Origin: Anaerolineae bacterium | GTDB taxonomy: Bacteria; Chloroflexota; Anaerolineae; Aggregatilineales; Phototrophicaceae | Assembly (NCBI GenBank): GCA_022841825.1 | Contig: JALHQT010000006.1 | Span: 186,001 to 250,000, forward strand | Length of the DNA stretch: 64,000 nucleotides | Direction: 5' to 3' | Part shown: positions 35,917-46,847 of the stretch, in pieces | Layout: every line of letters begins with the position of its first letter | Numbering within the stretch: position 1 is the stretch's first letter | Notes under the pieces: generated by a model | Told to the model about the DNA's origin: nothing | The model's database searches: none | The model's input: only the letters and a program-made list of their open reading frames with translations | Position numbers and translations under genes: made by a program

Positions 35917-36793
35917 TCTGTTCCGCGCGGAATGGGACAAGATCGCGGGCAATCGCATCACCGTCGCCGCCTTCGTCGGCATCTTCCCCATTTCGGCATT
36001 CATGCTGCTGGTCTTCGCGGGCATTGCGGTGCTCGTGTCCGCGACCTTTCGCCAGAACATCGTCAACGCACCGCCCAACTGGATGGAACAACTCCTCTTT
36101 CCCTGGGTCATCATCAATACTGAGATCGGGCGCGCCATCATGGCGGCGTTCGCGGCGGATGTCTTCGGCGGCGAGTACCAGCGCCAGATGTGGAAGAATC
36201 TGCTCCAGCGGCGCGGGCGGAGCGCGATCATCCTCAACAAGTTCCTGACGATGGCGGTCTTCGTCCTCGCCGCGTTCCTGTTGATGTGCGTGATCATCGG
36301 CATCGGCGTTGGTCTCCTGACGGCGCTGGCAGGCGCCGCCTATCCCCCGGCGTTGAGCGACCTCGCGCCAGGAGAACTTGAACGCTTCCTGCGTCAGTTC
36401 GGCGCGCAGGCGTCAATCGCGTTCGCCGCCGCGCTGGTCGCCGCCGCTTATGCCGCACTCGGCGGCATCTTCACACGCTCGATCCTGGGCGCGGTCGCGG
36501 TCGGCGTGCTGCTGACGCTGGCGGAACAAGGCGTCGCGCTCGTGCTGTTCATCCTGAACCAGATCGCCGAAAACCCCGATCTACTTCGGCTTTACTTCTT
36601 CACGCCTGGCTACAATCTCGCCAACCTCAGCACCTGGTCTCAGTTCGGCAGTGGCTACCTGCCGCCCTACATGACACAGTATGGTTTCACGCCCTTGCCG
36701 GTCGAAGCTTCGACGCTCCTGGTCATCGCCTGGCTGGTCGGGCTGATGATGCTGTGTGTCTGGCTGTTTCGGCGGCAGGACATCACGAGCTGA
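35909..36793 (+). CDS. ABC-2 type permease (PadR operon)
   Basis: A 294-residue membrane subunit with six helices: one long N-terminal helix, a large polar stretch with EYQRQMWKNLLQRRGRS (the coupling region), then four to five C-terminal helices. It overlaps the ATPase gene by eight bases, and GGAG precedes its ATG. Together they form an exporter of unknown substrate, possibly for peptides or antibiotics as in BcrAB-like systems; that role is inferred from family only. Confidence 0.85.
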   Translation: MLSLFRAEWDKIAGNRITVAAFVGIFPISAFMLLVFAGIAVLVSATFRQNIVNAPPNWMEQLLFPWVIINTEIGRAIMAAFAADVFGGEYQRQMWKNLLQRRGRSAIILNKFLTMAVFVLAAFLLMCVIIGIGVGLLTALAGAAYPPALSDLAPGELERFLRQFGAQASIAFAAALVAAAYAALGGIFTRSILGAVAVGVLLTLAEQGVALVLFILNQIAENPDLLRLYFFTPGYNLANLSTWSQFGSGYLPPYMTQYGFTPLPVEASTLLVIAWLVGLMMLCVWLFRRQDITS

Positions 36794-36904
36794 CGATGTA
36801 CAGTTGAAGTCTTGTGGACGCGCAATGGCGCGTCCTCCGAAAACGGTCGGCAACCCACCTTAGACTTCGAACCTCAATTCATGGCTCGGCAGACCTTCCA
36901 TACA

Positions 36905-36916
36905 CTACAGATGTAG
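36905..36916. promoter_or_regulatory. CopY/BlaI-type operator candidate
   Basis: CTACA-GA-TGTAG, preceded by CA, matches the TACA-N2-TGTA core bound by CopY/BlaI/MecI repressors. It is 38 bases before the ATG at 36954. No repressor of this family is encoded in the window. Confidence 0.35.
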
Positions 36917-36953
36917 ACCATCCTCTACTTTCATTCTCTAAAGGTCACATCGT

Positions 36954-37628
36954 ATGGATAAGACGGAAGAGCAGGGCTTTCGCGTTCCGATGGCGCTTAT
37001 CGCGCTGTTGATCGCCATCACCAGCGTCGCCGGGGCGATTGTCGCATGGCGCGGCTCGATTGCCGCCGATGCGGCGGGTGATGCCGACACCGCAGGCTTG
37101 CGCGCCACTATCAATCTGAATGAAACGCGCGCGCTGTCTGCGGTGGTCGCCTTTGGCGACTACGGCGCGTTCACGCAGTTTTACCGCAACCGCCAGCTCG
37201 CGCAGTTGCTAGAAGAAGACCTCGCCGCGCAACCCGAAGACGCCACCGAAGAACAGATCGCGCCACTTGCTGAAGAACTGGTCGACGTGACAGACAGCGC
37301 GACGGTAGCGCAGCAGGCATTCCCGAACGAATATCTCAATCGCGACGGAACGTATGCTCTCGAAAGGCAGCAGGGGCAGTTGTTCGCAGACGAGGCTCAG
37401 GAGCGCGATCTTAACCCATCCGCCAACTTTGCCGAAGCAGATCAGGCGCGTGTCAAAAGCGAGCAGCTCCTGATCGCCTTCTCAGTCCTGGCAGTCGCCC
37501 TGATCGCGTTCACGCTGATCGAGGTCGTCGGGAAGTACGCCAAGTACCTGATGTTGGCAGTCGGCAGCTTGCTGCTTGTAGCGGGCATCGTCGGCACAAT
37601 CCTCATCGAAATGGGGAGGCTGGCATAA
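36954..37628 (+). CDS. Membrane protein of unknown function (pair, first member)
   Basis: A 224-residue protein without a family I recognise. One N-terminal helix (residues 12-32) is followed by an acidic, mostly helical stretch of about 140 residues, then two C-terminal helices. The layout, and the stretch TAGLRATINLNETRALS just after the first helix, resemble the N-terminal part of the next protein, so the two look like diverged paralogues. Its stop shares one base with the next start (TAATG). AAGG lies upstream of the ATG. Confidence 0.6.
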   Translation: MDKTEEQGFRVPMALIALLIAITSVAGAIVAWRGSIAADAAGDADTAGLRATINLNETRALSAVVAFGDYGAFTQFYRNRQLAQLLEEDLAAQPEDATEEQIAPLAEELVDVTDSATVAQQAFPNEYLNRDGTYALERQQGQLFADEAQERDLNPSANFAEADQARVKSEQLLIAFSVLAVALIAFTLIEVVGKYAKYLMLAVGSLLLVAGIVGTILIEMGRLA

Positions 37629-39280
37629 TGGGTGATCGCTTCAAGGGATTCATTTCCGTCCTGATCGCCATCGTCACTGTCCTGACGGCAGTGGTCGCCT
37701 ACTTCCAGTCGGATGCCAGCAACCGCGACGACCGCGCAGGTCGAGACGCCAACAGCCTGGCGGTCGAAATGCTCGGTCAGAATGTCAGCGGCAGCACACG
37801 CAGCTACTACGATTACAATCAGGCGTACCAAACCTGGTTCGAACTCGACGTACTCGCCACCGCGGCGGAAGCGCGCGGCGACGACGCAGCGGCAAATCGC
37901 TACTTCGCCGCCGCCGAGTCGATGCAGTCCCTCAGCCCGCTGCTGCAACCCCCCTATTTTGATCCCGCAACGGGCGAGGTCGATTTTACCCGCTATGAAG
38001 TCGATACCTATCTGGCGCGCGTCACGCAGTTGAACGAAGAATACACGGCGGCGGCGGCGGTCAAGGATGCCTGGGACACCAAGGCAAACGCTTACGTCGT
38101 CCACCTGACGATCCTGGCGGTCTCGCTGTTCCTGCTCGGTCTGGCAGCCGCGATTGACCACCGTGCATCGCAGATGATCTTCAGCGTCGTTGGTGTTGCA
38201 CTGGTGAGCGTCGCCACCCTCTGGGCGGGCGCAACCTACCTCGAGCCGGTCGCCGACCTGCGCGATAACCCCGCTGCCATTGATGCTTATGCGCGCGGTG
38301 TCAGCTATGCCTACATGGGCGATGAAGCCGCAGCACGCGCCGCCTTCGATGAAGCAGCACAGATCCAGCCAGACTACGCAGCGGTTTACGTCGCACGCGG
38401 GACGGCACAGCTCGAGTTGGGTGAGTATGTTGCGGCAGCGGAGGACTTCGAGCGCGCCCGTGCGCTGGGTATCGAAAGCCCGTCTATGCTGGGTGACCTC
38501 GCGGTTGCGCTCTACTACCAGGGACGTTTTGCCGACGCCATCGCGCTCCAGCAGCAGGTGGTCGCCAACAGCCCGACAGAGCTGTGGGTGCAGTTCGATC
38601 TGGGCGCGAGTCTGATCATCAGTGGTCAACTGGATGCCGCACGCGCCACCTACCGTGCGGCGATGGATGCCGCCATCGCCGAAGTCGCCGCCGCGAACGA
38701 GGCAGGCACAACCCCATCTTCGGAGCTGTGGTTCGGCTTGAGCTACGGGGTGATCGGGCTGGACGAAATTCGCTCGCTGATCGCAGACGGTACGGGCGTA
38801 CCCGATCCCGCGCTGATCCCCAACCCGGCTGCGGTGGATGCACTGGCAGCAGAACTGACGACTGAGATCAAGCAGTTGACAGTCGGGCTGGAATTCCTCG
38901 GCGCGCCACCGACTGGCACACTGGAAGCACAAATCACCGATCTGTCCTTTGGCGAGCCGATCTATGGCGACGATGGCAGTGTGGACTACGAAATCGGCAA
39001 CGAGTTTGAAAGCGGGATTTCCGAAGTGAGCATGTTGTTCGATTATGCCGGGATGCGCGACGGGCAGGAGATCGTCATCAAGGTCTTCATTGATGACAAG
39101 GAAGACCCATCGTGGCGCATTGTTGCGCCCTGGGATGCAGGCGCGGACGGCGAGGGCTACGAGATCCCACTCGCCATCTCCTACAGCGACACTTTCGTCC
39201 TCAGCACTGCCAGTTACAGTGTCGAGATGTACGTCGATGGGCTGCTAGCCGCCGAGGGCGACTTCTTCATCGAGGAGTAG
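37628..39280 (+). CDS. Membrane TPR protein of unknown function (pair, second member)
   Basis: A 550-residue protein. An N-terminal helix (10-28), an extracytoplasmic region of about 120 residues and two helices (near 160-205) repeat the layout of the protein before it. Three to four TPR-like units follow (AIDAYARGVSYAYMGDEAAA, AVYVARGTAQLELGEYVAAA, SMLGDLAVALYYQGRFADA). The C-terminal 120 residues are beta-rich (EVSMLFDYAGMRDGQEIVIK) and probably an adhesion- or Ig-like fold. It is translationally coupled to its neighbour and followed by a terminator. Confidence 0.65.
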   Translation: MGDRFKGFISVLIAIVTVLTAVVAYFQSDASNRDDRAGRDANSLAVEMLGQNVSGSTRSYYDYNQAYQTWFELDVLATAAEARGDDAAANRYFAAAESMQSLSPLLQPPYFDPATGEVDFTRYEVDTYLARVTQLNEEYTAAAAVKDAWDTKANAYVVHLTILAVSLFLLGLAAAIDHRASQMIFSVVGVALVSVATLWAGATYLEPVADLRDNPAAIDAYARGVSYAYMGDEAAARAAFDEAAQIQPDYAAVYVARGTAQLELGEYVAAAEDFERARALGIESPSMLGDLAVALYYQGRFADAIALQQQVVANSPTELWVQFDLGASLIISGQLDAARATYRAAMDAAIAEVAAANEAGTTPSSELWFGLSYGVIGLDEIRSLIADGTGVPDPALIPNPAAVDALAAELTTEIKQLTVGLEFLGAPPTGTLEAQITDLSFGEPIYGDDGSVDYEIGNEFESGISEVSMLFDYAGMRDGQEIVIKVFIDDKEDPSWRIVAPWDAGADGEGYEIPLAISYSDTFVLSTASYSVEMYVDGLLAAEGDFFIEE

Positions 39281-39303
39281 CCGCGCCAACCAGCGAGGAG
39301 CGG

Positions 39304-39326
39304 AGAGGCGCATCGTGCGCCTCTTT
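39304..39326 (+). terminator. Terminator after the membrane protein pair
   Basis: AGAGGCGCA-TCG-... pairs with TGCGCCTCT (nine pairs, three-base loop), followed by a short T-rich tail, 24 bases after the stop at 39280. The stretch from 39327 to 39515 shows nothing else. Confidence 0.65.
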
Positions 39327-39515
39327 CGTCGCTCTCGTGAAAGCTATTTTCAATTGCCCAATGGTGGCGGGTGGCGTCCAGAAGCCGAGCTGCGTGGTTG
39401 GGTAGACTTTGGTCACCAGACACCCCAAGACACCCAGCAAGCGCAGCAGTTCAGGGATGGCGCTTATTTCATTCGACTTGGCATCCACTTTGCGCTGGTG
39501 CAACCACCCTGCCAG

Positions 39516-39588
39516 AGGTGGTGGCGGGAATTGAACCCGCGAATAGAGGTTTTGCAGACCTCCGCGTTAGCCACTTCGCCACACCACC
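39516..39588 (-). tRNA. tRNA-Cys (anticodon GCA)
   Basis: Read on the minus strand, the 7-pair acceptor stem GGTGGTG/CACCACC, a D-arm closed by GCG/CGC, an anticodon stem GAGGT/ACCTC with loop CTGCAAA (anticodon GCA) and a T-stem GCGGG/CCCGC with TTCAATT form a full cloverleaf of 73 bases. The discriminator is U, as in all tRNA-Cys. CCA is not encoded. It lies just beyond the 3' end of the cysteine-regulated sulfurtransferase operon. Confidence 0.95.
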
Positions 39589-39610
39589 AAAGAATGTCTG
39601 TGTCGCTGCC

Positions 39611-40849
39611 CTACCCCCATCGGTGCAAGCCGAGTCGAATGCCGAGCCACACGCCGCCGATCCCCGCCGCCGCGAACACCCAACCAGAAAGCGCGAACGC
39701 CGAAATCCCCGACATCAGCGTGCCAACCGTGCAGCCCAGCGCCAGCATCGAACCCCATCCCATCAATATGCCGCCGCCGAGCGCGGTCACACCGCTTTTG
39801 AGCGTAAGCGAAGACGGTTGAAAGCGGTTGGCGATCAGCGAAACTGCGAACGAACCCACGACAAGCCCACCGATTAGCCAGCCATTTTCGGTGATGGTTT
39901 GCACCACTTGTGTCGCGCAGCCAGCGAAACCATCCAGCCCGTTCAGCCGGTCGGCGAGCAGTCCCGCATTGTCGAGCGTCGTGCGGGCGATGCTCCCGAT
40001 CTGCGATGTGACGCCGAGCGGTTCGACGCGGAAGTAGGCGATCATGCCGATGATGCCGACGATCGCGCCCGTCACGAGCGGACCCCAGCGTTGGCGAAAG
40101 ACCAGATTGAACAGGCGCACGGGCGTCAGACGCTCCGGCATTTCGGCAGTCAGCGCAGGCAGGAGACGCAGCAGGGCGACGGCGATGATCGTCAGCAGCG
40201 CGAGATGGAGCGCTAGCGACCCGCCGTAGCCGAGCATCGCGGGCAACCAGACGACCGGTGCATTCGTCAGTGTGCTCAGATAGACACTTTGCCAGGTGAA
40301 GAAGCCCAACCCGAAGCCGACGACCGAGCCGAGCAGCGCGACGGGCGCGCGGCTGTAGCCTTCGCCTAGACGGTAAAGATGCCCGCTGATGCATGCGCCA
40401 GAGAGCGCCATGCCGATGCCGAATGCACCGCCTGCCGCGACCAGCACCCACGAGACGGGACCGATATGCGCATCCGGTGGCAGACGCCCGCTGAAGCTGT
40501 TGGGCAGAAACGCGCCAAAGACGACCGCGTAGCCGATGCCGCCGACCGCCAGCGCTGCGAGGATGGCGTACATCCCCGTACTGTCGCGCTTTTCGATCCA
40601 ATCGCGCAGGATGCAGAAGAAACAAAAACGCCCGCGTGCAAAAGTGATGCCAAGCGCCGCTCCGAGGAGCAGCGAAATCGATGACTTCGCGCCGTATCCA
40701 TCCGCATCATGCAAAAGATACGCGCCTACCACGACGGCGACTATGACGAGCGTCCCGCCCAAAAGACGCAGCGCATCGCTTCTGGAAAACGCTAGTGAAG
40801 CGGGGACGGCATCCCGCAGGACGCCGCCCCCCAGTGTCGTATCCGACAT
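39611..40849 (-). CDS. YeeE/YedE-family sulfur (thiosulfate) transporter
   Basis: A 412-residue membrane protein with about nine to ten helices. The conserved cysteines of the family are visible in RGRFCFFCILRD, SGACISGHLYRLGEG, GFAGCATQVV and LALGCTVGTLMSG; in TsuA-type proteins such cysteines relay thiosulfate across the membrane. The two half-units repeat the G-x-C-x-x-G pattern. It starts three bases after the stop of the exported thiosulfate sulfurtransferase, so the two act together in sulfur uptake. The role as thiosulfate importer is family knowledge plus context. Confidence 0.88.
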   Translation of the reverse strand: MSDTTLGGGVLRDAVPASLAFSRSDALRLLGGTLVIVAVVVGAYLLHDADGYGAKSSISLLLGAALGITFARGRFCFFCILRDWIEKRDSTGMYAILAALAVGGIGYAVVFGAFLPNSFSGRLPPDAHIGPVSWVLVAAGGAFGIGMALSGACISGHLYRLGEGYSRAPVALLGSVVGFGLGFFTWQSVYLSTLTNAPVVWLPAMLGYGGSLALHLALLTIIAVALLRLLPALTAEMPERLTPVRLFNLVFRQRWGPLVTGAIVGIIGMIAYFRVEPLGVTSQIGSIARTTLDNAGLLADRLNGLDGFAGCATQVVQTITENGWLIGGLVVGSFAVSLIANRFQPSSLTLKSGVTALGGGILMGWGSMLALGCTVGTLMSGISAFALSGWVFAAAGIGGVWLGIRLGLHRWG

Positions 40850-40852
40850 GAA

Positions 40853-41788
40853 TTACTGACCGCCCCAGACGGTACCTGCCGGGTTTTCGACCGGCACGCC
40901 TACGGAATTACCCCACTCCGTCCACGAACCGTCATAGAGCGCCACGTCATAACCGAGCAGTTCGTGCAGGACGAACCACGTCAGCGCAGCGCGCTCACCA
41001 ATACGGCAGTAGGTGACAATCGGCTGTGAGCCATCGACACCCAACCCACCGTAGAGCACCTGAAGCTCCTCAAGCGACTTGAAGGTGCCGTCCTCGTTGA
41101 CGTTTTGCCCCCACGGGACATTCAGCGCACCCGGGATGTGCCCCGCGCGGATTGCCAGCTCCTGCACGCCTTCTGGCGCGAAGATCTCGCCGTTGTACTC
41201 GGCGGGCGAACGAATGTCGATCAGCGAAGCAAGCGTTTCACCCTCAACAATACTCAGGACTTCCGGCTTGAGCGCACGCAGTTCATCATCCGCTTCGCCG
41301 ATAGTCACACTGCCAGCCTCGAAGGTGGCAGAATCGGTTGAAAGCGGACGACCATCCGCCTCCCACTTCACGCGCCCACCATCGAGCAGTCGCACATCCT
41401 CGAAACCGTACAGGTTGAAGATCCATGCGCCCCAGGCGGCGAACCAGTTGTTGCTATCGCCATAGAGAATGACCGTTGTATCATCGTTCACGCCTGCGCC
41501 GCGCAGGAGTTCCTGAAAACGTTCCGCTGAGACGACATCACGTTCGAGCGGGTTGACGAAATCAGTGTGCCAGACGAAGTTGACCGCGCCGGGGATATGC
41601 CCGCGTTCAAAGACGCCGGGGTTGACGCTGACTTCGATGATGCGGACGTTCGGGTCTTCGAGATTTTGTTCCAGCCAGTCGGCGGTCACAAGGACTTCTG
41701 GCGCAGCATCCTGGGCGAAGGCACTGGCTGTGAGCAGCGTCAGAGCGAGGAGCAGGATGAGCGAGACGAACCATTTAATGCGAGACAT
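40853..41788 (-). CDS. Exported thiosulfate sulfurtransferase (tandem rhodanese)
   Basis: A 311-residue enzyme that moves sulfane sulfur from thiosulfate to an acceptor. It has a signal peptide (WFVSLILLLALTLLTASAFAQ) and two rhodanese domains; the second carries the catalytic Cys in YCRIGERAALTWFVL, the loop typical of CysA2/TST enzymes. The first domain is inactive (ILYGDSNNWFAAWGAWIF). The ATG at 41788 has GGAG ten bases upstream. Its start codon lies inside a Cys-rich small ORF (41740-41889), and a leader peptide and terminator lie further upstream, so expression should depend on cysteine supply. Confidence 0.9.
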   Translation of the reverse strand: MSRIKWFVSLILLLALTLLTASAFAQDAAPEVLVTADWLEQNLEDPNVRIIEVSVNPGVFERGHIPGAVNFVWHTDFVNPLERDVVSAERFQELLRGAGVNDDTTVILYGDSNNWFAAWGAWIFNLYGFEDVRLLDGGRVKWEADGRPLSTDSATFEAGSVTIGEADDELRALKPEVLSIVEGETLASLIDIRSPAEYNGEIFAPEGVQELAIRAGHIPGALNVPWGQNVNEDGTFKSLEELQVLYGGLGVDGSQPIVTYCRIGERAALTWFVLHELLGYDVALYDGSWTEWGNSVGVPVENPAGTVWGGQ

Positions 41789-41889
41789 TGCGATTGTTCT
41801 CCGGTTGTTCTGCACAGGGTGAGTGAATTATTCGGCGCTCCATCGGGGAGCCAGTTCAGACACGGTGAGCAACTACAGCCACTACACAT
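41740..41889 (-). CDS. Cys-rich uORF overlapping the sulfurtransferase start
   Basis: A 49-codon ORF beginning MCSGCSCSPC, with four Cys codons in the first ten and seven in all (positions 2, 5, 7, 10, 26, 35, 46). AAGGG lies seven bases before its ATG, an excellent ribosome site. It ends 49 bases inside the sulfurtransferase gene in another frame, and the Shine-Dalgarno and start codon of that gene lie within it. Ribosomes moving or stalling here would control access to that start. Polycysteine uORFs before sulfur genes are known from mycobacteria; the peptide itself probably has no function. Confidence 0.7.
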   Translation of the reverse strand: MCSGCSCSPCLNWLPDGAPNNSLTLCRTTGEQSQCLALNGSSRSSCSSL

Positions 41890-41928
41890 CACAAATCCCT
41901 TCTACTCCAATCCATCGTGAGGAGGGAC

Positions 41929-41960
41929 AACAACGCCCCGGTGATGACCGAGGCGTTGTT
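41929..41960 (-). promoter_or_regulatory. Second leader hairpin
   Basis: Arms AACAACGCC and GGCGTTGTT, plus CGGT/ACCG after one mismatch, give a thirteen-pair hairpin with a four-base loop between the attenuator terminator and the second uORF. No T-run follows on the minus strand, so it is unlikely to be a simple terminator; it may insulate the uORF ribosome site. Confidence 0.5.
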
Positions 41961-41970
41961 CTCTGGAGAT

Positions 41971-42001
41971 AGAAAGAGAAACGCCCCGGCAAACCGGGGC
42001 G
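41971..42001 (-). terminator. Attenuator terminator of the sulfurtransferase-yeeE operon
   Basis: On the minus strand, CGCCCCGG-TTTG-CCGGGGCG (42001-41982) is a perfect eight-pair hairpin followed by TTTCTCTTTCT. It lies 26 bases after the stop of the Cys leader peptide. Its 5' arm can instead pair with GCCGGGGT inside the leader ORF (42047-42040), so termination and antitermination are mutually exclusive. Confidence 0.75.
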
Positions 42002-42027
42002 CATCGTCGCAAACAATCGTCAGCGTG

Positions 42028-42102
42028 TTAGCAGCACAAACCCCGGCGGTGATTTGCCATCGAACAACGACAACACATTACGGGGGCGGCGAAAAGGATC
42101 AC
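42028..42102 (-). CDS. Cysteine leader peptide (attenuator)
   Basis: A 24-codon ORF from GTG at 42102; AAAGG lies six bases upstream. It reads MILFAAPV, then MCCRCSMANHRRGLCC and stop, with Cys codons at 10, 11, 13, 23 and 24. Segment 1 (CCCCG, 42085-42081) can pair with segment 2 (CGGGG, 42045-42041), segment 2 with the terminator 5' arm, and the terminator with itself. A ribosome stalled at Cys 10-13 would cover segment 1 and free segment 2 to block the terminator; one that reaches the stop covers segment 2. This is the classic amino-acid attenuator arrangement. Confidence 0.72.
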   Translation of the reverse strand: MILFAAPVMCCRCSMANHRRGLCC

Positions 42103-42111
42103 AGTCAACCT

Positions 42112-42342
42112 TTACTTTTTCGCTAACTTGGCAAGAGAGTAAACGAGTTTCAAAATCGTGTCAAGCACCTTTTCGAGTTTTTCAGGAATTGCGCAGGGTA
42201 ACTCCAAAAACTGTTTCAGCCACTTGCCTTTGGCTTTCCCAAACGTCTCGACCCCCGTCCAGCTCTCCGCCGCGCAGATCACCGCATAAACCGCATTATC
42301 CGTCTTGCCCTCTTTTGATGCGATTACCCGGTTCCGATCCCC
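42112..42342 (-). pseudogene. ISAs1-type transposase remnant (N-terminal part)
   Basis: The open minus-strand frame reads KTDNAVYAVICAAESWTGVE and then TFGKAKGKWLKQFLELPCAIP, the conserved start of ISAs1/H-repeat transposases (normally ...ICAVICGAESWxDIExFG...). The rest of the enzyme is missing; the frame ends in unrelated Lys/Leu-rich codons at 42112, and no start codon or terminal repeats were found. Sequence composition is more AT-rich than the neighbours. The present promoter of the sulfur operon lies within it. Confidence 0.7.
42136..42164 (-). promoter_or_regulatory. Promoter of the cysteine leader operon
   Basis: On the minus strand TTGACA (42164-42159) and TACTCT (42141-42136) are 17 bases apart, placing the transcript start near 42129, 27 bases before the leader GTG. 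The promoter lies inside the transposase remnant at 42112-42342. Confidence 0.65.
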
Positions 42343-42437
42343 TTACGTGTCGCGCAAATGTAATGCAGCTATAATTGTCGAGTGCGTGTACACTTTTCGG
42401 CATTTCTAAATCCTTCCAACCATTGAGAGGTTTCCGA

Positions 42438-43391
42438 GTGCAGCGATTCACGTCTGTCTTTCGCCTCGGGGCGATTTTCCTGTGCGCTATCCTGCTTGCC
42501 ACGTGTTCCAGCGGCGAGCCAGCCGCCCCAACCAGCGGCGCAACCACCCCCGACTCGAACACCAATCCGCTGCCCCCACCGCCCACGCTGGTGGTGATCG
42601 ACCCTGCGGCACTCCCGACCGACTCGGCAGGGCTGCCGCTGGCTGCAATCGTCAATGGGCAGGGTATTCGTTATGACACTTTCCTGCGCGCCTACGATCG
42701 CGCGGTCGCCCAGCAATTCACCGCCGCCGACCCGGCAGCGCTGCGTGCCAGCGTACTGAGCACACTGATCGAGCAGACACTCGTGAACCAGGATGCCGGG
42801 CAGCGCGGGCTGGTGCCGACCCAGGCGGAAGTTGATGCAGAAGTCCAGAACCAGCAAACGCTGGCAGGTGGCACGGAAGCATGGCAGTCCTGGTTGTCTG
42901 CCAACCAGTACACCGAAGGCGACTATCGCGAAGCCGTGCAACTGGGCTTGCTCTACTCTAGAATGATCGAAACGGTCACGGCAGGGCTGAACGGCGATGT
43001 CCCGCAGGTGCGGGCGCGGCATATCCTGGTCGCCAGCGAAGCCGAAGCGAACGACATCCTGACGCGGCTGGGCAACGGTGAGGACTTCGCCGCGCTTGCC
43101 GCCCAGTTCTCGCTCGATGCCACCAGTCGTGAAACCGGTGGTGATCTGGGCTGGTTCGCGCAGGAAGAACTGGTCGATCCGGCGCTGGCGACCATCGCCT
43201 TCTCGCTGGACCCGGCACAGATGCAAATCGCCGGACCCATCCCGACAACCCTGGGTTACCATATTATTCAGACGCTCGAACGCAGCAGTCTGCCGCTGCC
43301 AGAAGAACGCAAAGCGCAGGTTTCACAGCGGCAGTTTGAGGATTGGCTGGCAAGCCTGGTCGCCGCAGCCAACATCCAGAGATTTATCTAG
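42438..43391 (+). CDS. Lipoprotein peptidyl-prolyl isomerase, PrsA/SurA type
   Basis: Extracytoplasmic folding factor of 317 residues. The signal peptide ends in a lipobox, LLATC, so the mature protein starts with a lipid-modified Cys near residue 24. A SurA_N-like helical domain follows (NGQGIRYDTFLRAYDRAVAQ, VLSTLIEQTLV), then a parvulin domain with VRARHILV, GGDLGWFAQEELV and TTLGYHIIQTLE. GTG at 42438 has AGAGG seven bases upstream; the in-frame extension to 42375 would bury the signal peptide. It is the first of three plus-strand genes for exported proteins. Confidence 0.9.
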   Translation: MQRFTSVFRLGAIFLCAILLATCSSGEPAAPTSGATTPDSNTNPLPPPPTLVVIDPAALPTDSAGLPLAAIVNGQGIRYDTFLRAYDRAVAQQFTAADPAALRASVLSTLIEQTLVNQDAGQRGLVPTQAEVDAEVQNQQTLAGGTEAWQSWLSANQYTEGDYREAVQLGLLYSRMIETVTAGLNGDVPQVRARHILVASEAEANDILTRLGNGEDFAALAAQFSLDATSRETGGDLGWFAQEELVDPALATIAFSLDPAQMQIAGPIPTTLGYHIIQTLERSSLPLPEERKAQVSQRQFEDWLASLVAAANIQRFI

Positions 43392-43424
43392 GGGGTGCCG
43401 CATGGGCACATACGGAGGAACTCT

Positions 43425-44216
43425 ATGAGCGGAGCATCGCGTTTGTACAATATCATCGCCATTCTTTTCCTGATCCTGACGCTCGCGGCGTGCGCCCTGG
43501 TCGCCTACCTGTTTATTCAACCTGCGGCGGCGCCGGCGGGCGAAAGCGCCGCGCTGCCGACCAACATCGTACTGCCGTCGCTGACTCCCAGCAGCACCGC
43601 GACCAATACGCCGCTTCCGACTTTCACACCGACTGCCACCCAGACGCTGGTCCCCAGCATCACGCCGTCACCCACCTTCACGCCCCTGCCGCCCACCTTC
43701 ACGCCGCCGCCGACCGCCACTCAGGTTATCCCACCGACGGCAACGATCACCATCACACCCGGACCGTCTGCCACCTTTACAGCGCTGCCGACCCTGACGA
43801 ATACTGCCCCGCCGACCGCGCAGCCATCGCCGACGGGTCCCACGCCTTCGCCCTTCCCGTTCGCGCTGCGCGACTCGCAGGTCACCTTCACGACCAATTT
43901 CGCCAACACGGCAGGCTGTGCCTGGCAGGGGATCGGCGGTCAGGTCTTCGATTCAAACGGCAACCCGCTGACCAACATTCGCATTCATGTCTTTGGGCAA
44001 AACTTCGACCAGTTCGCCACCAGCGGCTCCAACACGCTGTATGGCGTGGGCGGCTATGAGATCTCGGTCGGCACGGCGAGTGCGCCCGCGACCTTCGTCG
44101 TCGAGCTGCTTTCAGAGCAGGGCACGACCATCTCGCCGCAGATCACCGTCGCGTTTCCTGGCGATTGCACGCGCAACCTGGCGCTGGTCAATTTCATCCA
44201 GAACCGCCCGCTGTAA
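43425..44216 (+). CDS. Exported protein with Thr/Pro-rich linker and novel C-terminal domain (1)
   Basis: A 263-residue protein. One membrane anchor (residues 10-32) leads to a Thr/Pro/Ser-rich linker of about 100 residues, probably extended and perhaps glycosylated. The last 110 residues form a compact beta-rich domain with AGCAWQGIGGQVFD, SGSNTLYGVGGYEI and GDCTRNLALVNF. The same pattern is in the next gene product, including the two cysteines, which may form a disulfide. I know no name for this domain. GGAGG lies just before the ATG. The gene follows the isomerase gene by 33 bases. Confidence 0.75.
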   Translation: MSGASRLYNIIAILFLILTLAACALVAYLFIQPAAAPAGESAALPTNIVLPSLTPSSTATNTPLPTFTPTATQTLVPSITPSPTFTPLPPTFTPPPTATQVIPPTATITITPGPSATFTALPTLTNTAPPTAQPSPTGPTPSPFPFALRDSQVTFTTNFANTAGCAWQGIGGQVFDSNGNPLTNIRIHVFGQNFDQFATSGSNTLYGVGGYEISVGTASAPATFVVELLSEQGTTISPQITVAFPGDCTRNLALVNFIQNRPL

Positions 44217-44231
44217 CCCGGGGGATAGACG

Positions 44232-45200
44232 ATGGCGGAAGAATTCGGCAGCGGCAAGAAAGCGGACAAACGAAAGGTCGATGCGCGCGCGCGCAAGCGC
44301 CGCATTGAATCGCGCGATCTTCCGCCTGCCTCGCAGGATGCGGATGAGCACCCCACGTCCGAACTATCCGCCGCGCCCGACGAAGCCGCCCCGCCACCCC
44401 CGCGCCGACGAACACGACCCGATGAGGAGCGCTTCCCCGCGCTCCCGGATGAGCAGCGTCGGGCGCGCAAACCAGCGCCGCGAACAGCAACTCTGCCCCG
44501 CCGCCGAGGTTTTCCCTGCCGCGACCTGATCGCCGGCTTGTTCATCCTGGCGACGCTTGGGCTGGCGGTTTATTTCGTCTACATCTGGCAAAACCCGTAC
44601 TCACCACTCAACCCGCTCGCGCCGCCGCTGCTGCCGCCGCTGGTCGTCTCGCAGACGCCGCTGCCGCCGCCGACCGAAACCGCCACGCCGCGCCCAACCG
44701 CGCGCCCCAGCGCGACCTTCACGCCGCTGCCGCTCGACCAGATCGCGCCTGTCGTGCCGACCGAAGGCATCGCGGGCACGCCTGACCTGACCGCCACCCT
44801 GCTCGCGGGCACGCCGAGCGCCACGCCGCCTCCACCGCCCTTCGCGCTGCTGCGCGACCGTGCGCTCTACATCGCCAACGCGGGCACGGAGGGATGCAGC
44901 TACAGCGGCATTGCAGGATCAGTGGTCGATTTTGAGGGTCAGGCGCTCAATGGCTACACGGTCTGGATCACTGGAGAAGAGGTCGATACACGGTTGGTGA
45001 GCGGCAGCAACAATCTGTATGGCGCGGGCGGCTTTTTAGTACAGGTTGGCACGAGCGCGGAAGAACGCCCATTCGCCGCGCAGGTGCTGGCTGCGGACGG
45101 CGTGACGCCGCTCTCCGAGCCGTATACCTTCCTGACGCGCGCCGCCTGCGACAACAACGTCGTCCTCATCCGCTTCGTGCAGGTCGCGGACTTGCCGTAG
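44232..45200 (+). CDS. Exported protein with Thr/Pro-rich linker and novel C-terminal domain (2)
   Basis: A 322-residue protein. A charged cytoplasmic stretch of about 100 residues precedes one membrane helix (DLIAGLFILATLGLAVYFV), followed by a Pro/Thr-rich linker and the same beta-rich domain as the preceding protein: EGCSYSGIAGSVVDFEG, SGSNNLYGAGGFLVQVG and AACDNNVVLIRF. The domain pair suggests an old gene duplication. The cytoplasmic part is highly basic and acidic in turn, likely disordered. Its TAG stop lies within the arm of the palindrome at 45197-45226. Confidence 0.75.
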   Translation: MAEEFGSGKKADKRKVDARARKRRIESRDLPPASQDADEHPTSELSAAPDEAAPPPPRRRTRPDEERFPALPDEQRRARKPAPRTATLPRRRGFPCRDLIAGLFILATLGLAVYFVYIWQNPYSPLNPLAPPLLPPLVVSQTPLPPPTETATPRPTARPSATFTPLPLDQIAPVVPTEGIAGTPDLTATLLAGTPSATPPPPPFALLRDRALYIANAGTEGCSYSGIAGSVVDFEGQALNGYTVWITGEEVDTRLVSGSNNLYGAGGFLVQVGTSAEERPFAAQVLAADGVTPLSEPYTFLTRAACDNNVVLIRFVQVADLP

Positions 45201-45226
45201 GGGCGAACCTATGTGTTCGCCCCTAC
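45197..45226. repeat. GTAGGGGCGAAC palindrome between convergent genes
   Basis: Perfect 12-base arms GTAGGGGCGAAC and GTTCGCCCCTAC enclose CTATGT. It separates the stops of two convergent genes and contains the TAG stop of the upstream one. It may work as a two-way transcription end or be one copy of a dispersed repeat. Confidence 0.75.
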
Positions 45227-45227
45227 C

Positions 45228-46847
45228 CTAAAAGACTGCCACCTGCCCGTCCTTGCGTGGGTCGCTTCCGCCGAAAAGCACACCTGTCTCGGCATCGCGC
45301 CGGATGATCTGCCCATCGCCGAACACGCCGCGCCCCGCCCCGCTGACCGGACGCACCTGGTGTCCCATCTCTGCCAGCTTCGCCATCGTCGCCAGCGGCA
45401 CCCCTTCTTCCAGTGCCAGCACGCTGTCCGCCGTGCCTGCTTCCAGACACCAGCGCGGCTGATTCAGCGCTTCCTGCGGGTTCAGGTCGTCGTCCAGCAT
45501 GGCGCTCACGACCTGCATGTGCCCCTGCGGCTGCATGAAACCACCCATGACTCCAAACGCCGCCCACAGCGCGTCACCGCGCAGCGCCATCGCCGGGATG
45601 ATGGTGTGGTACGGGCGTTTGCCCGGCGCGACTTCATTGCGATGCCCGCTTTCCAGCGAAAAGCCAGCCCCGCGATTTTGCAGAAAAACACCCGTCCCCC
45701 GCGCCACAATGCCGCTGCCCCAGCCCATATATAGGCTGTTGATGAACGAGCAGGCGTTGCCTTCGCCATCGACCGCGCACAGATAGACGGTGTCCGAGCC
45801 GCCGGGCAGTGACCCTGCCTGTGGAAGCGGCAGCACGCGGTCGTAGCGGATGAGCGCGCGCCGCTGACGGGCATATCCTGCGCCGAGGAGCGCCTCGGTC
45901 GGCACGTCCGCCATCTCCGGGTCAGCGATGTAGGCGCGTGCGTCGGCGAAGGCGAGCCGCATCGCTTCGATCATCAGGTGCAGGCGCTCCGGCGAACCGG
46001 GCGGCAGCGAACTCAGTTCGAACCCTGACGCGACATTGAGCGCCAGCAGCGCCGCCAGCCCCTGCCCATTGGGTGGGCATTCGTAAATCGTCACGCCGCG
46101 ATAGGTCGTGCAGATCGGCTCATGCCAGGTGGAGCGATGTGCCTTGAGGTCTTCATGCGTCATCACACCGCCGAGCGCGTTGAGGGTCCTAACGATGGAA
46201 TCGCCAATCTCGCCCAGGTAGAATGCCTCCGCGCCGCCCTCCGCCACCGCTTCAAGCGTCCGTGCCAGGCTCGGCAGGCGCACCATCTGCCCGATGTGGG
46301 GAGCAAGCCCGCCGGGAAGATAGTCCTGCGTATGCGGGCTGGCGAGCAGAAACGCCTGCGAGCGCCCCCACGCCTCGCCAAAGACCGGGTGCACCGGGTA
46401 GCCTTCACGGGCATAACGGATGGCATCCGCCAACACATGCTTCAGCGGCATCGTGCCATGCCGCGCCAGGAGATCTTGCCAGCCTGCCGCCGCACCGGGA
46501 ACCGTCACCGCGTGCGGGCTGCGCTCCGGCATGGTCGCATAGCCCTTGTCGCGCAGATACTCCGCCGTCAGCGCCATTGGCGCGCGCCCGCTCCCGTTCA
46601 GTGCCGTCACTTTGCGCATCGCCGCATCATAGTAAAGTGCGAAGCAGTCACCACCGATCCCGGTCGAGGCAGGCTCTGTCACATTCAGCACTGCCGCCGC
46701 AGCGATCACGGCGTCCGCCGCATTCCCGCCCTGGCGCAGGATGTCCAGCCCGGAGGCGCTCGCCAACGGATTGCTGGTCGCAACCATGCCGCGACGCCCG
46801 ACGACCATCGAACGCCGCGACCCAAACGCAAATGACATGGTTTTCAT
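45228..46847 (-). CDS. Gamma-glutamyltransferase family protein
   Basis: An Ntn-hydrolase of 539 residues that cleaves gamma-glutamyl bonds after self-processing. The N-terminal half has NPLASASGLDILRQGGNAADA and EPASTGIGGDCFALYY. The new N-terminus after processing would be the Thr of SDTVYLCAVDGEGNACSFINS; classic enzymes read TTH here, while the YwrD-like branch reads DTVY. No signal peptide is visible, so it is probably cytoplasmic. The start at 46847 (ATG) is followed by two further ATG codons within 15 residues. Confidence 0.88.
   Translation of the reverse strand: MKTMSFAFGSRRSMVVGRRGMVATSNPLASASGLDILRQGGNAADAVIAAAAVLNVTEPASTGIGGDCFALYYDAAMRKVTALNGSGRAPMALTAEYLRDKGYATMPERSPHAVTVPGAAAGWQDLLARHGTMPLKHVLADAIRYAREGYPVHPVFGEAWGRSQAFLLASPHTQDYLPGGLAPHIGQMVRLPSLARTLEAVAEGGAEAFYLGEIGDSIVRTLNALGGVMTHEDLKAHRSTWHEPICTTYRGVTIYECPPNGQGLAALLALNVASGFELSSLPPGSPERLHLMIEAMRLAFADARAYIADPEMADVPTEALLGAGYARQRRALIRYDRVLPLPQAGSLPGGSDTVYLCAVDGEGNACSFINSLYMGWGSGIVARGTGVFLQNRGAGFSLESGHRNEVAPGKRPYHTIIPAMALRGDALWAAFGVMGGFMQPQGHMQVVSAMLDDDLNPQEALNQPRWCLEAGTADSVLALEEGVPLATMAKLAEMGHQVRPVSGAGRGVFGDGQIIRRDAETGVLFGGSDPRKDGQVAVF

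Follow-up and report, generated by a model that had tools for sequence, protein, structure and literature searches.

We identified a probable ribosome-mediated transcription attenuator that would sense Cys-tRNA-Cys and control an operon encoding a rhodanese-type sulfurtransferase, a YeeE-type sulfur transporter and a tRNA-Cys in a 64,000-nucleotide stretch of an Anaerolineae genome (hereafter the window), a reading drawn from comparative sequence analysis to which we assign a probability of roughly 0.88. The genome measures 5.9 Mb at a completeness of 95.7%, and every element of the locus described here lies on the minus strand. The operon consists of the rhodanese gene (40853-41788; PF00581, E = 2e-38), whose product carries a CRIGER loop, the YeeE gene (39611-40849; PF04143, E = 7e-54) and, 22 nt 3' of YeeE, a gene for tRNA-Cys(GCA) (39515-39588; called by ARAGORN, Rfam tRNA score 67.5 bits) that is the second isodecoder of the genome. 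C261 and R262 of the rhodanese are invariant across 10 orthologues, the protein has an apparent N-terminal signal sequence as judged by eye, and its closest named orthologues come mostly from Anaerolineae MAGs (Chloroflexota). Two named loci appear to derive from mislabelled MAGs: L034, labelled Pleurocapsa minor, resembles G012, which belongs to the window's genus, and L038, labelled Bacteroidetes, duplicates L115.

Leader 1 (42028-42102) runs from a GTG at 42102 to a TAA at 42028 and encodes a peptide of 24 codons, VILFAAPVMCCRCSMANHRRGLCC, with Cys at positions 10, 11, 13, 23 and 24. Upstream of it lies a candidate promoter with a -35 hexamer TTGACA (42164-42159), a 17-nt spacer and a -10 hexamer TACTCT (42141-42136). 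A preliminary description of this DNA had called both the minus-strand promoter and the leader with its five Cys codons, and direct reading bears out each of them, though the window's -10 hexamer is poor and a scan for consensus promoters listed none on the minus strand. An exact TTGACA placed 16-18 nt from a -10-like hexamer stands 5' of leader 1 in 20 of the 22 sequences compared below. That description had also considered that transcription might start downstream of 41971; the conserved promoter motif sits 5' of the whole antiterminator/terminator device, which spans 42047-41971. A transposase remnant (DDE_Tnp_1_assoc, PF13808, E = 1e-8), which we take to be of the ISAs1/H-repeat type, occupies 42178-42294 on the same strand, its homology ending about 13 nt 5' of the -35 hexamer.

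Across 154 genomes of the order, 24 close rhodanese orthologues (E <= 1e-110) were detected in 23 genomes, and with two upstream regions cut by contig ends (L007 and L121), 22 complete regions were available. Leader 1, its Cys codons clustered, is followed by a terminator in 21 of these 22, the terminator of L010 having been placed by eye; L011 is an orthologue with complete upstream sequence, yet it has no Cys leader of this kind. The 21 order sequences and L050, which comes from a named Chloroflexota MAG, together form the analysis set of 22. Under script criteria, a Cys-cluster ORF followed by a terminator was recovered from 19 of 22 upstream regions and from 0 of 880 dinucleotide shuffles, and a chance origin of the pair was rejected on this count. 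Among control homologues the combination was seen in 0 of 8 from outside the Chloroflexota and in 0 of 7 other Chloroflexota, controls that covered 32 of 80 named loci, with the seven Chloroflexota examined twice, under criteria that missed the true cases L055 and L102.

The leader peptide varies in sequence among relatives, and what is kept are its Cys codons, their bias towards TGT and the placement of the antiterminator arm, region 2, near the stop codon. Counted from the cluster to the stop, leader 1 contains three to seven Cys codons per sequence, and the TGT/TGC ratio is 79/26 in leader 1 and 53/7 in the first 12 codons of a second leader described below, compared with 2/22 in the rhodanese genes. 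Slow, wobble-read Cys codons would be those expected in a sensitive leader. Region 2 starts 8-28 nt 5' of the stop codon in 21 of 22 sequences (L012: just after its start). No NCBIfam model was matched by either leader.

The layout of the window allows the pairing alternatives of a classical attenuator. Region 1 (CCCCG, 42081-42085) is a potential partner of region 2 (GCCGGGGT, 42040-42047), which lies within the final codons of leader 1 and would form the 5' arm of the antiterminator, and region 3 (GCCCCGGT, 41993-42000) is common to the antiterminator (2:3) and the terminator (3:4). Terminator 1 (41971-42002) pairs 42002-41994 with 41989-41981, and its stem is followed by TTCTCTTTCT, with a T-rich tail at 41980-41971. 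The preliminary description had reported these elements in slightly different form: its eight-pair terminator with T-rich tail is present, with a stem (42002-41981) of nine pairs if the terminal G-U is counted; its 2:3 helix exists and covaries, one base away from where it had been placed, at 42047-42040 with 42000-41993; and its 1:2 helix, 42085-42081 with 42045-42041, has the right coordinates but is short (5 bp in the window) and weak across relatives, with a swap test p of 0.051.

Covariation was measured on a MAFFT alignment of the 22 sequences (A2) that was not fitted to structure, and the accompanying shuffle and swap tests ignore the kinship of the sequences. The 3:4 helix is 100% paired and contains 11 double-changed cells versus 2.1 in shuffles, with 0 of 500 shuffles as high. 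For the 2:3 helix, pairing reaches 92.6%, versus 30-50% for slid versions of itself, and there are 15 double-changed cells versus 3.6 +- 1.5 in shuffles; in double-changed cells and in score alike, 0 of 500 shuffles came as high. Five covariation measures were computed for 2:3, two of them not extreme: the number of pairs with double changes was reached by 11 of 500 shuffles and the number of further pair types by 379 of 500. Helix scores for 2:3 in single sequences are mostly unremarkable (p 0.003-0.256). Exchanging regions between species weakened the helix (z 5.2 for 15 sequences; p = 0.0002 for all 22), and in L114, L117 and L124 region 3 reads CCCTGGC, which forms Watson-Crick pairs with region 2 (GCCAGGG) and wobble pairs with region 4, arguing that 2:3 is selected for itself. 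Judged from the alignment, the predicted antiterminator 2:3 and terminator 3:4 are both conserved, mutually exclusive and covarying, and the comparison with homologues proposed in the preliminary description thus finds Cys codons, terminator and 2:3 helix conserved.

We also folded the leader transcripts, cut before region 4 (arm 4), with ribosome footprints at different positions. The mean probability of 2:3 pairing rose from 0.41 for the free transcript to 0.94 when a footprint covered the first Cys codon, and was 0.06 with the ribosome at the stop codon, a low value that arises mostly because region 2 itself is then blocked; in L005 and L050 the stop-codon footprint falls short of region 2. 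When 15 nt more of upstream context were included, a stall on the first Cys codon gave 0.76 compared with 0.30 for the free transcript, and values of at least 0.8 in 16 of 22 sequences. In this longer context, blocks placed 15 or 30 nt 5' of the first Cys codon gave 0.83 and 0.68, and a block 15 nt 3' of it had little effect (0.44). L012 departs from the footprint model (0.03). In these folding models, a ribosome on the first Cys codons would free the antiterminator.

Taken as a mechanism, RNA polymerase would transcribe leader 1 from the promoter with the conserved -35 while a ribosome trails behind. With ample Cys-tRNA the ribosome would reach the stop codon and cover region 2, 3:4 would form and transcription would end. 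When Cys-tRNA is scarce, the ribosome would stall on UGU codons and mask the region that otherwise holds region 2, permitting 2:3 to pair, leaving region 4 free and allowing polymerase to continue. It is very improbable that leader 1 is instead the ordinary terminator of a decayed transposase next to a chance Cys-rich frame, with the operon driven from elsewhere: the transposase remnant directly upstream (homology at about 42294-42178) would suit such an origin, but the Cys cluster, promoter and covarying helices recur at the same place in relatives and the leader with its terminator is absent from all 880 shuffles. Cys-rich peptides of the CruR type respond to copper, and the leader peptides described here might likewise sense something other than cysteine charging, such as copper or sulfane sulfur acting through their thiols. 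This reading would accommodate the thiol-rich peptides and a sulfurtransferase as first gene; we nevertheless regard it as improbable, as the peptide varies while Cys codons, TGT bias and region 2 position persist, and similar leaders stand before MetY-MetX, an operon of the cystathionine-enzyme/cysteine synthase type and tRNA-Cys genes. A T-box or known riboswitch was rejected as a candidate, an Rfam search of 36000-46000 (E <= 1) having returned nothing but the tRNA and a miRNA model that scored far under its cut-off.

Several features of the locus had been overlooked in the preliminary description, namely a second hairpin, a second leader, the tRNA-Cys behind YeeE and the presence of similar leaders at other sulfur operons. 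Hairpin 2 (41929-41960) has 14 pairs between arms 5 and 6 and is a possible second terminator; a hairpin of score at least 24 precedes leader 2 in 15 of 22 sequences. In a swap test whose final version omits the doubtful hairpins of L005 and L015 that a first version had included, region 4 fits the 5' arm of hairpin 2 from its own species better than swapped arms (R4:R5, z 5.6), terminator 1 itself scores z 3.8, and the negative control, region 2 against arm 5, gives z 0.2. Free region 4 may accordingly pair with arm 5 and disarm hairpin 2, and a ladder of 2:3 plus 4:5 in the on state versus 3:4 plus 5:6 in the off state would explain read-through past this hairpin. However, R3:R6 likewise exceeds its swapped counterparts (z 4.1), which leaves plain similarity of the two hairpins as a possible cause of the R4:R5 signal, and for this reason we only infer the relay.

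Downstream of hairpin 2, the window contains leader 2 (41740-41889; ATG at 41889 or GTG at 41892), which begins MCSGCSCSPC. In 20 of 22 sequences a script recovered a Cys-rich second leader with a Shine-Dalgarno sequence, the exceptions being L050 and L123, with products such as MESCCCR, MEPCCCDGCST and MDCCCSR and starts 72-127 nt 5' of the gene; that of the window is atypical, being longer and running 49 nt into the rhodanese gene. One possible, if rather doubtful, role is that of a further attenuator, acting on translation like the mycobacterial polycysteine leaders, in which a stall would free the rhodanese ribosome-binding site. Leader 2 is Cys-rich, uses TGT codons and is preceded by a Shine-Dalgarno of its own that agrees with AGGAGG at 4-6 of the 6 positions; the gene start region is often paired with it in single-sequence folds, and a ribosome stalled on its Cys codons makes the start site about 1 kcal/mol cheaper to open (p = 0.009). 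A block at another place in the gap, however, opens the start site equally (p = 0.76), the folds are weaker than shuffled ones (mean z +1.1), and in the alignment spanning terminator to gene RNAalifold detects no conserved pair. The fold, RNAalifold and stall comparisons thus gave no specific support for a structural lock joining leader 2 to the rhodanese ribosome-binding site. Leader peptides can also control Rho-dependent termination, as TnaC does, and we consider it unlikely, though conceivable, that leader 2 governs such termination in the untranslated stretch ahead of the rhodanese gene. The genome encodes Rho (PF07498), and 15 of the 20 sequences having leader 2 leave a gap of 34-89 nt after it, but in the other five, the window included, the gap is 0-11 nt, and it is C-rich and G-poor in some sequences only. 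Rho has been proposed for terminator-less actinobacterial Cys leaders in the part of the literature consulted (PMC1262725).

The preliminary description had named thiosulfate uptake as the controlled function, an assignment that the family scores of the transporter do not establish. YeeE meets the PF04143 superfamily cut-off but falls below those of all four matching NCBIfam families, including TsuA and YedE, with 61.8 bits against a cut-off of 645 and 61.3 against 400 in the test for a TsuA/YeeE thiosulfate transporter, so that thiosulfate is only a putative substrate. Among the 45 tRNA matches of the genome, ARAGORN identifies two as tRNA-Cys(GCA), the operon copy and L149:1501-1571, and these differ strongly in sequence; the operon copy is a divergent second isodecoder, and an operon ending in a tRNA-Cys is unusual. 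A single CysRS of the genome scores above the Pfam cut-off, and inspection upstream of its cysS (L171:1051-1520) revealed no Cys leader. Of 16 named Anaerolineae-type loci scanned downstream of YeeE, 14 extend beyond the YeeE stop and two of these have a tRNA-Cys there (L035 = L114 and L036 = L006). With the window and L173 this makes four loci, and the YeeE-tRNA-Cys arrangement is therefore patchy.

A DNA search with the operon tRNA gave matches, mostly weak, in 50 of 154 genomes. Fifteen tRNA loci were fetched, ten of which are of the operon type by eye and share GTGGCGAAG; six of the ten stand beside YeeE or MetY and four directly behind Cys leaders. The tRNA follows YeeE in the window, L173, L174 (= L114) and L177 (= L006), and it precedes MetY behind a Cys leader and hairpin in L178 and L182. 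In L179, which has two tRNAs, and in L180 a Cys leader and hairpin again stand in front of it, and an ABM-like or unassigned ORF follows. In L175 it lies directly 3' of the end of a frame that resembles MetX by eye, and in L176 directly 3' of an ABC transporter permease/ATPase pair, presumably of the sulfonate type. For L178-L180 and L182, where the terminator finder listed nothing, leaders and hairpins were identified by eye. The tandem arrangement of L179 belongs to genome G034, and the ORFs at L179:562-1104 (no Pfam match) and L180:1013-1561 (ABM just below cut-off) may represent an unknown sulfur gene.

Cys leaders of this type also precede other sulfur genes. In 1.66 Mb, or 28% of the genome, a Cys leader followed by a terminator was matched four times, and three of these matches precede sulfur operons: the operon described above, MetY-MetX (L219, both genes above NCBIfam cut-offs) and an operon of the cystathionine gamma-synthase/lyase family - JAMM - MoeB - cysteine synthase type (L236, in which MoeB is above cut-off and the other three genes are named by best matches below cut-off). 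The fourth, L223, resembles chance. This count is biased, because L219, L223 and L236 all came from 20 stretches picked around pattern matches or cysS; 60 stretches sampled at spaced steps contained no Cys leader plus terminator, and raw leader matches for other amino acids exceed those for Cys (R 38, S 38, A 29). Searching for TGYTGYNTGTGY gave 55 matches versus 18 for a reversed control, and 30 of these loci contained no leader plus terminator in a screen whose positive control was run separately. In contig G000:C1, Cys-pattern matches at 360789, 361149 and 361509 are spaced by 360 bases, suggesting a tandem repeat.

A similar leader was seen by eye in 8 of 19 loci of a cytoplasmic-type rhodanese paralogue, including L002 of the same genome. 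A strict scan, in each case with our own genome included, found a Cys leader plus terminator at 4 of 29 MetY loci (all matches with E <= 1e-150) and at 1 of 28 cystathionine-enzyme loci, for which 30 of 43 matches were taken, two of them without a locatable gene. These criteria are too strict, since they missed L299/L300, whose Cys leader is sparser, and L314, the MetY gene next to L182's tRNA-Cys and Cys leader. In the six relatives checked, a SAM riboswitch precedes the cystathionine-enzyme gene in L328 (1200-1301), L329, L330, L331 and L339 and the MetY gene in L316. These riboswitches stand where our own genome has Cys leaders (L236 and L219), which points to an exchange of regulators on genes of the same pathway.

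Together, these loci lead us to a tentative hypothesis, whose prospects we place slightly short of even: a Cys-tRNA feedback regulon of Anaerolineae, in which Cys-codon attenuators would switch on sulfur operons along with a dedicated second tRNA-Cys isodecoder, and in which the operon type of the window would be doubled by a relay hairpin and leader 2. If so, and if the tRNA is co-transcribed with the operon, the sensed molecule's own tRNA would belong to the output. The divergent tRNA-Cys genes in operons predicted to sense Cys-tRNA raise the question of whether tRNA supply, besides that of the amino acid, is changed on codon starvation.

The his, trp and leu leader attenuators of enterobacteria operate by the 1:2, 2:3, 3:4 logic. 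The attenuator proposed here would follow the same logic with another amino acid, in another phylum and on other genes, with two hairpins and two leaders. For mycobacterial cys operons, polycysteine leaders were reportedly described by Canestrari in 2020. They share with our leaders a short polycysteine ORF upstream of sulfur genes and are cysteine-responsive; leader 1 differs in that it would work through a predicted intrinsic terminator, and leader 2 resembles them, although no specific lock was found. In the portions of the literature available to us, actinobacterial and mycobacterial Cys leaders are described as having no conserved terminators (PMC1262725), and the polycysteine leader of M. 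smegmatis is assigned to translation attenuation (PMC13236596).

The closest precedent is uORFC-8-2 upstream of cysS in Rhodobacterales, for which the sections consulted of a 2021 study propose transcription attenuation by Cys-tRNA and describe, as here, a tandem-Cys leader ORF followed by an intrinsic terminator (PMC8632094). According to the same sections, that family is confined to Alphaproteobacteria and cysS and usually has two Cys codons at positions 14-15, whereas our leaders occur in Anaerolineae before sulfur operons, have 3-7 Cys codons and a long-range covarying 2:3 antiterminator, and are joined by a second hairpin, a second leader and a tRNA-Cys in the operon; membership in uORFC-8-2 was rejected, as target gene and Cys codon positions differ. 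An association of tRNA-Cys genes with sulfur-related genes, which our operon shares, is also known from tRNA-Cys genes beside SepCysS and sulfur genes, stated in the parts consulted of a 2017 study to serve RNA-dependent cysteine synthesis (PMC5424206); the word stem attenuat- does not occur in its main text. The top-ranked PMC open-access literature yielded no Cys attenuator in Chloroflexota and no tRNA-Cys gene under one. The preliminary description had presented a Cys attenuator as a notable variant in itself; cysteine leader attenuation is known from Rhodobacterales (cysS) and mycobacteria, and what is new is the phylum, the tandem design and the operon-borne tRNA-Cys. Our analysis would thereby extend classical cysteine leader-peptide attenuation to a deep, mostly uncultured phylum, with a clear case of three-way covariation among antiterminator, terminator and leader codons.
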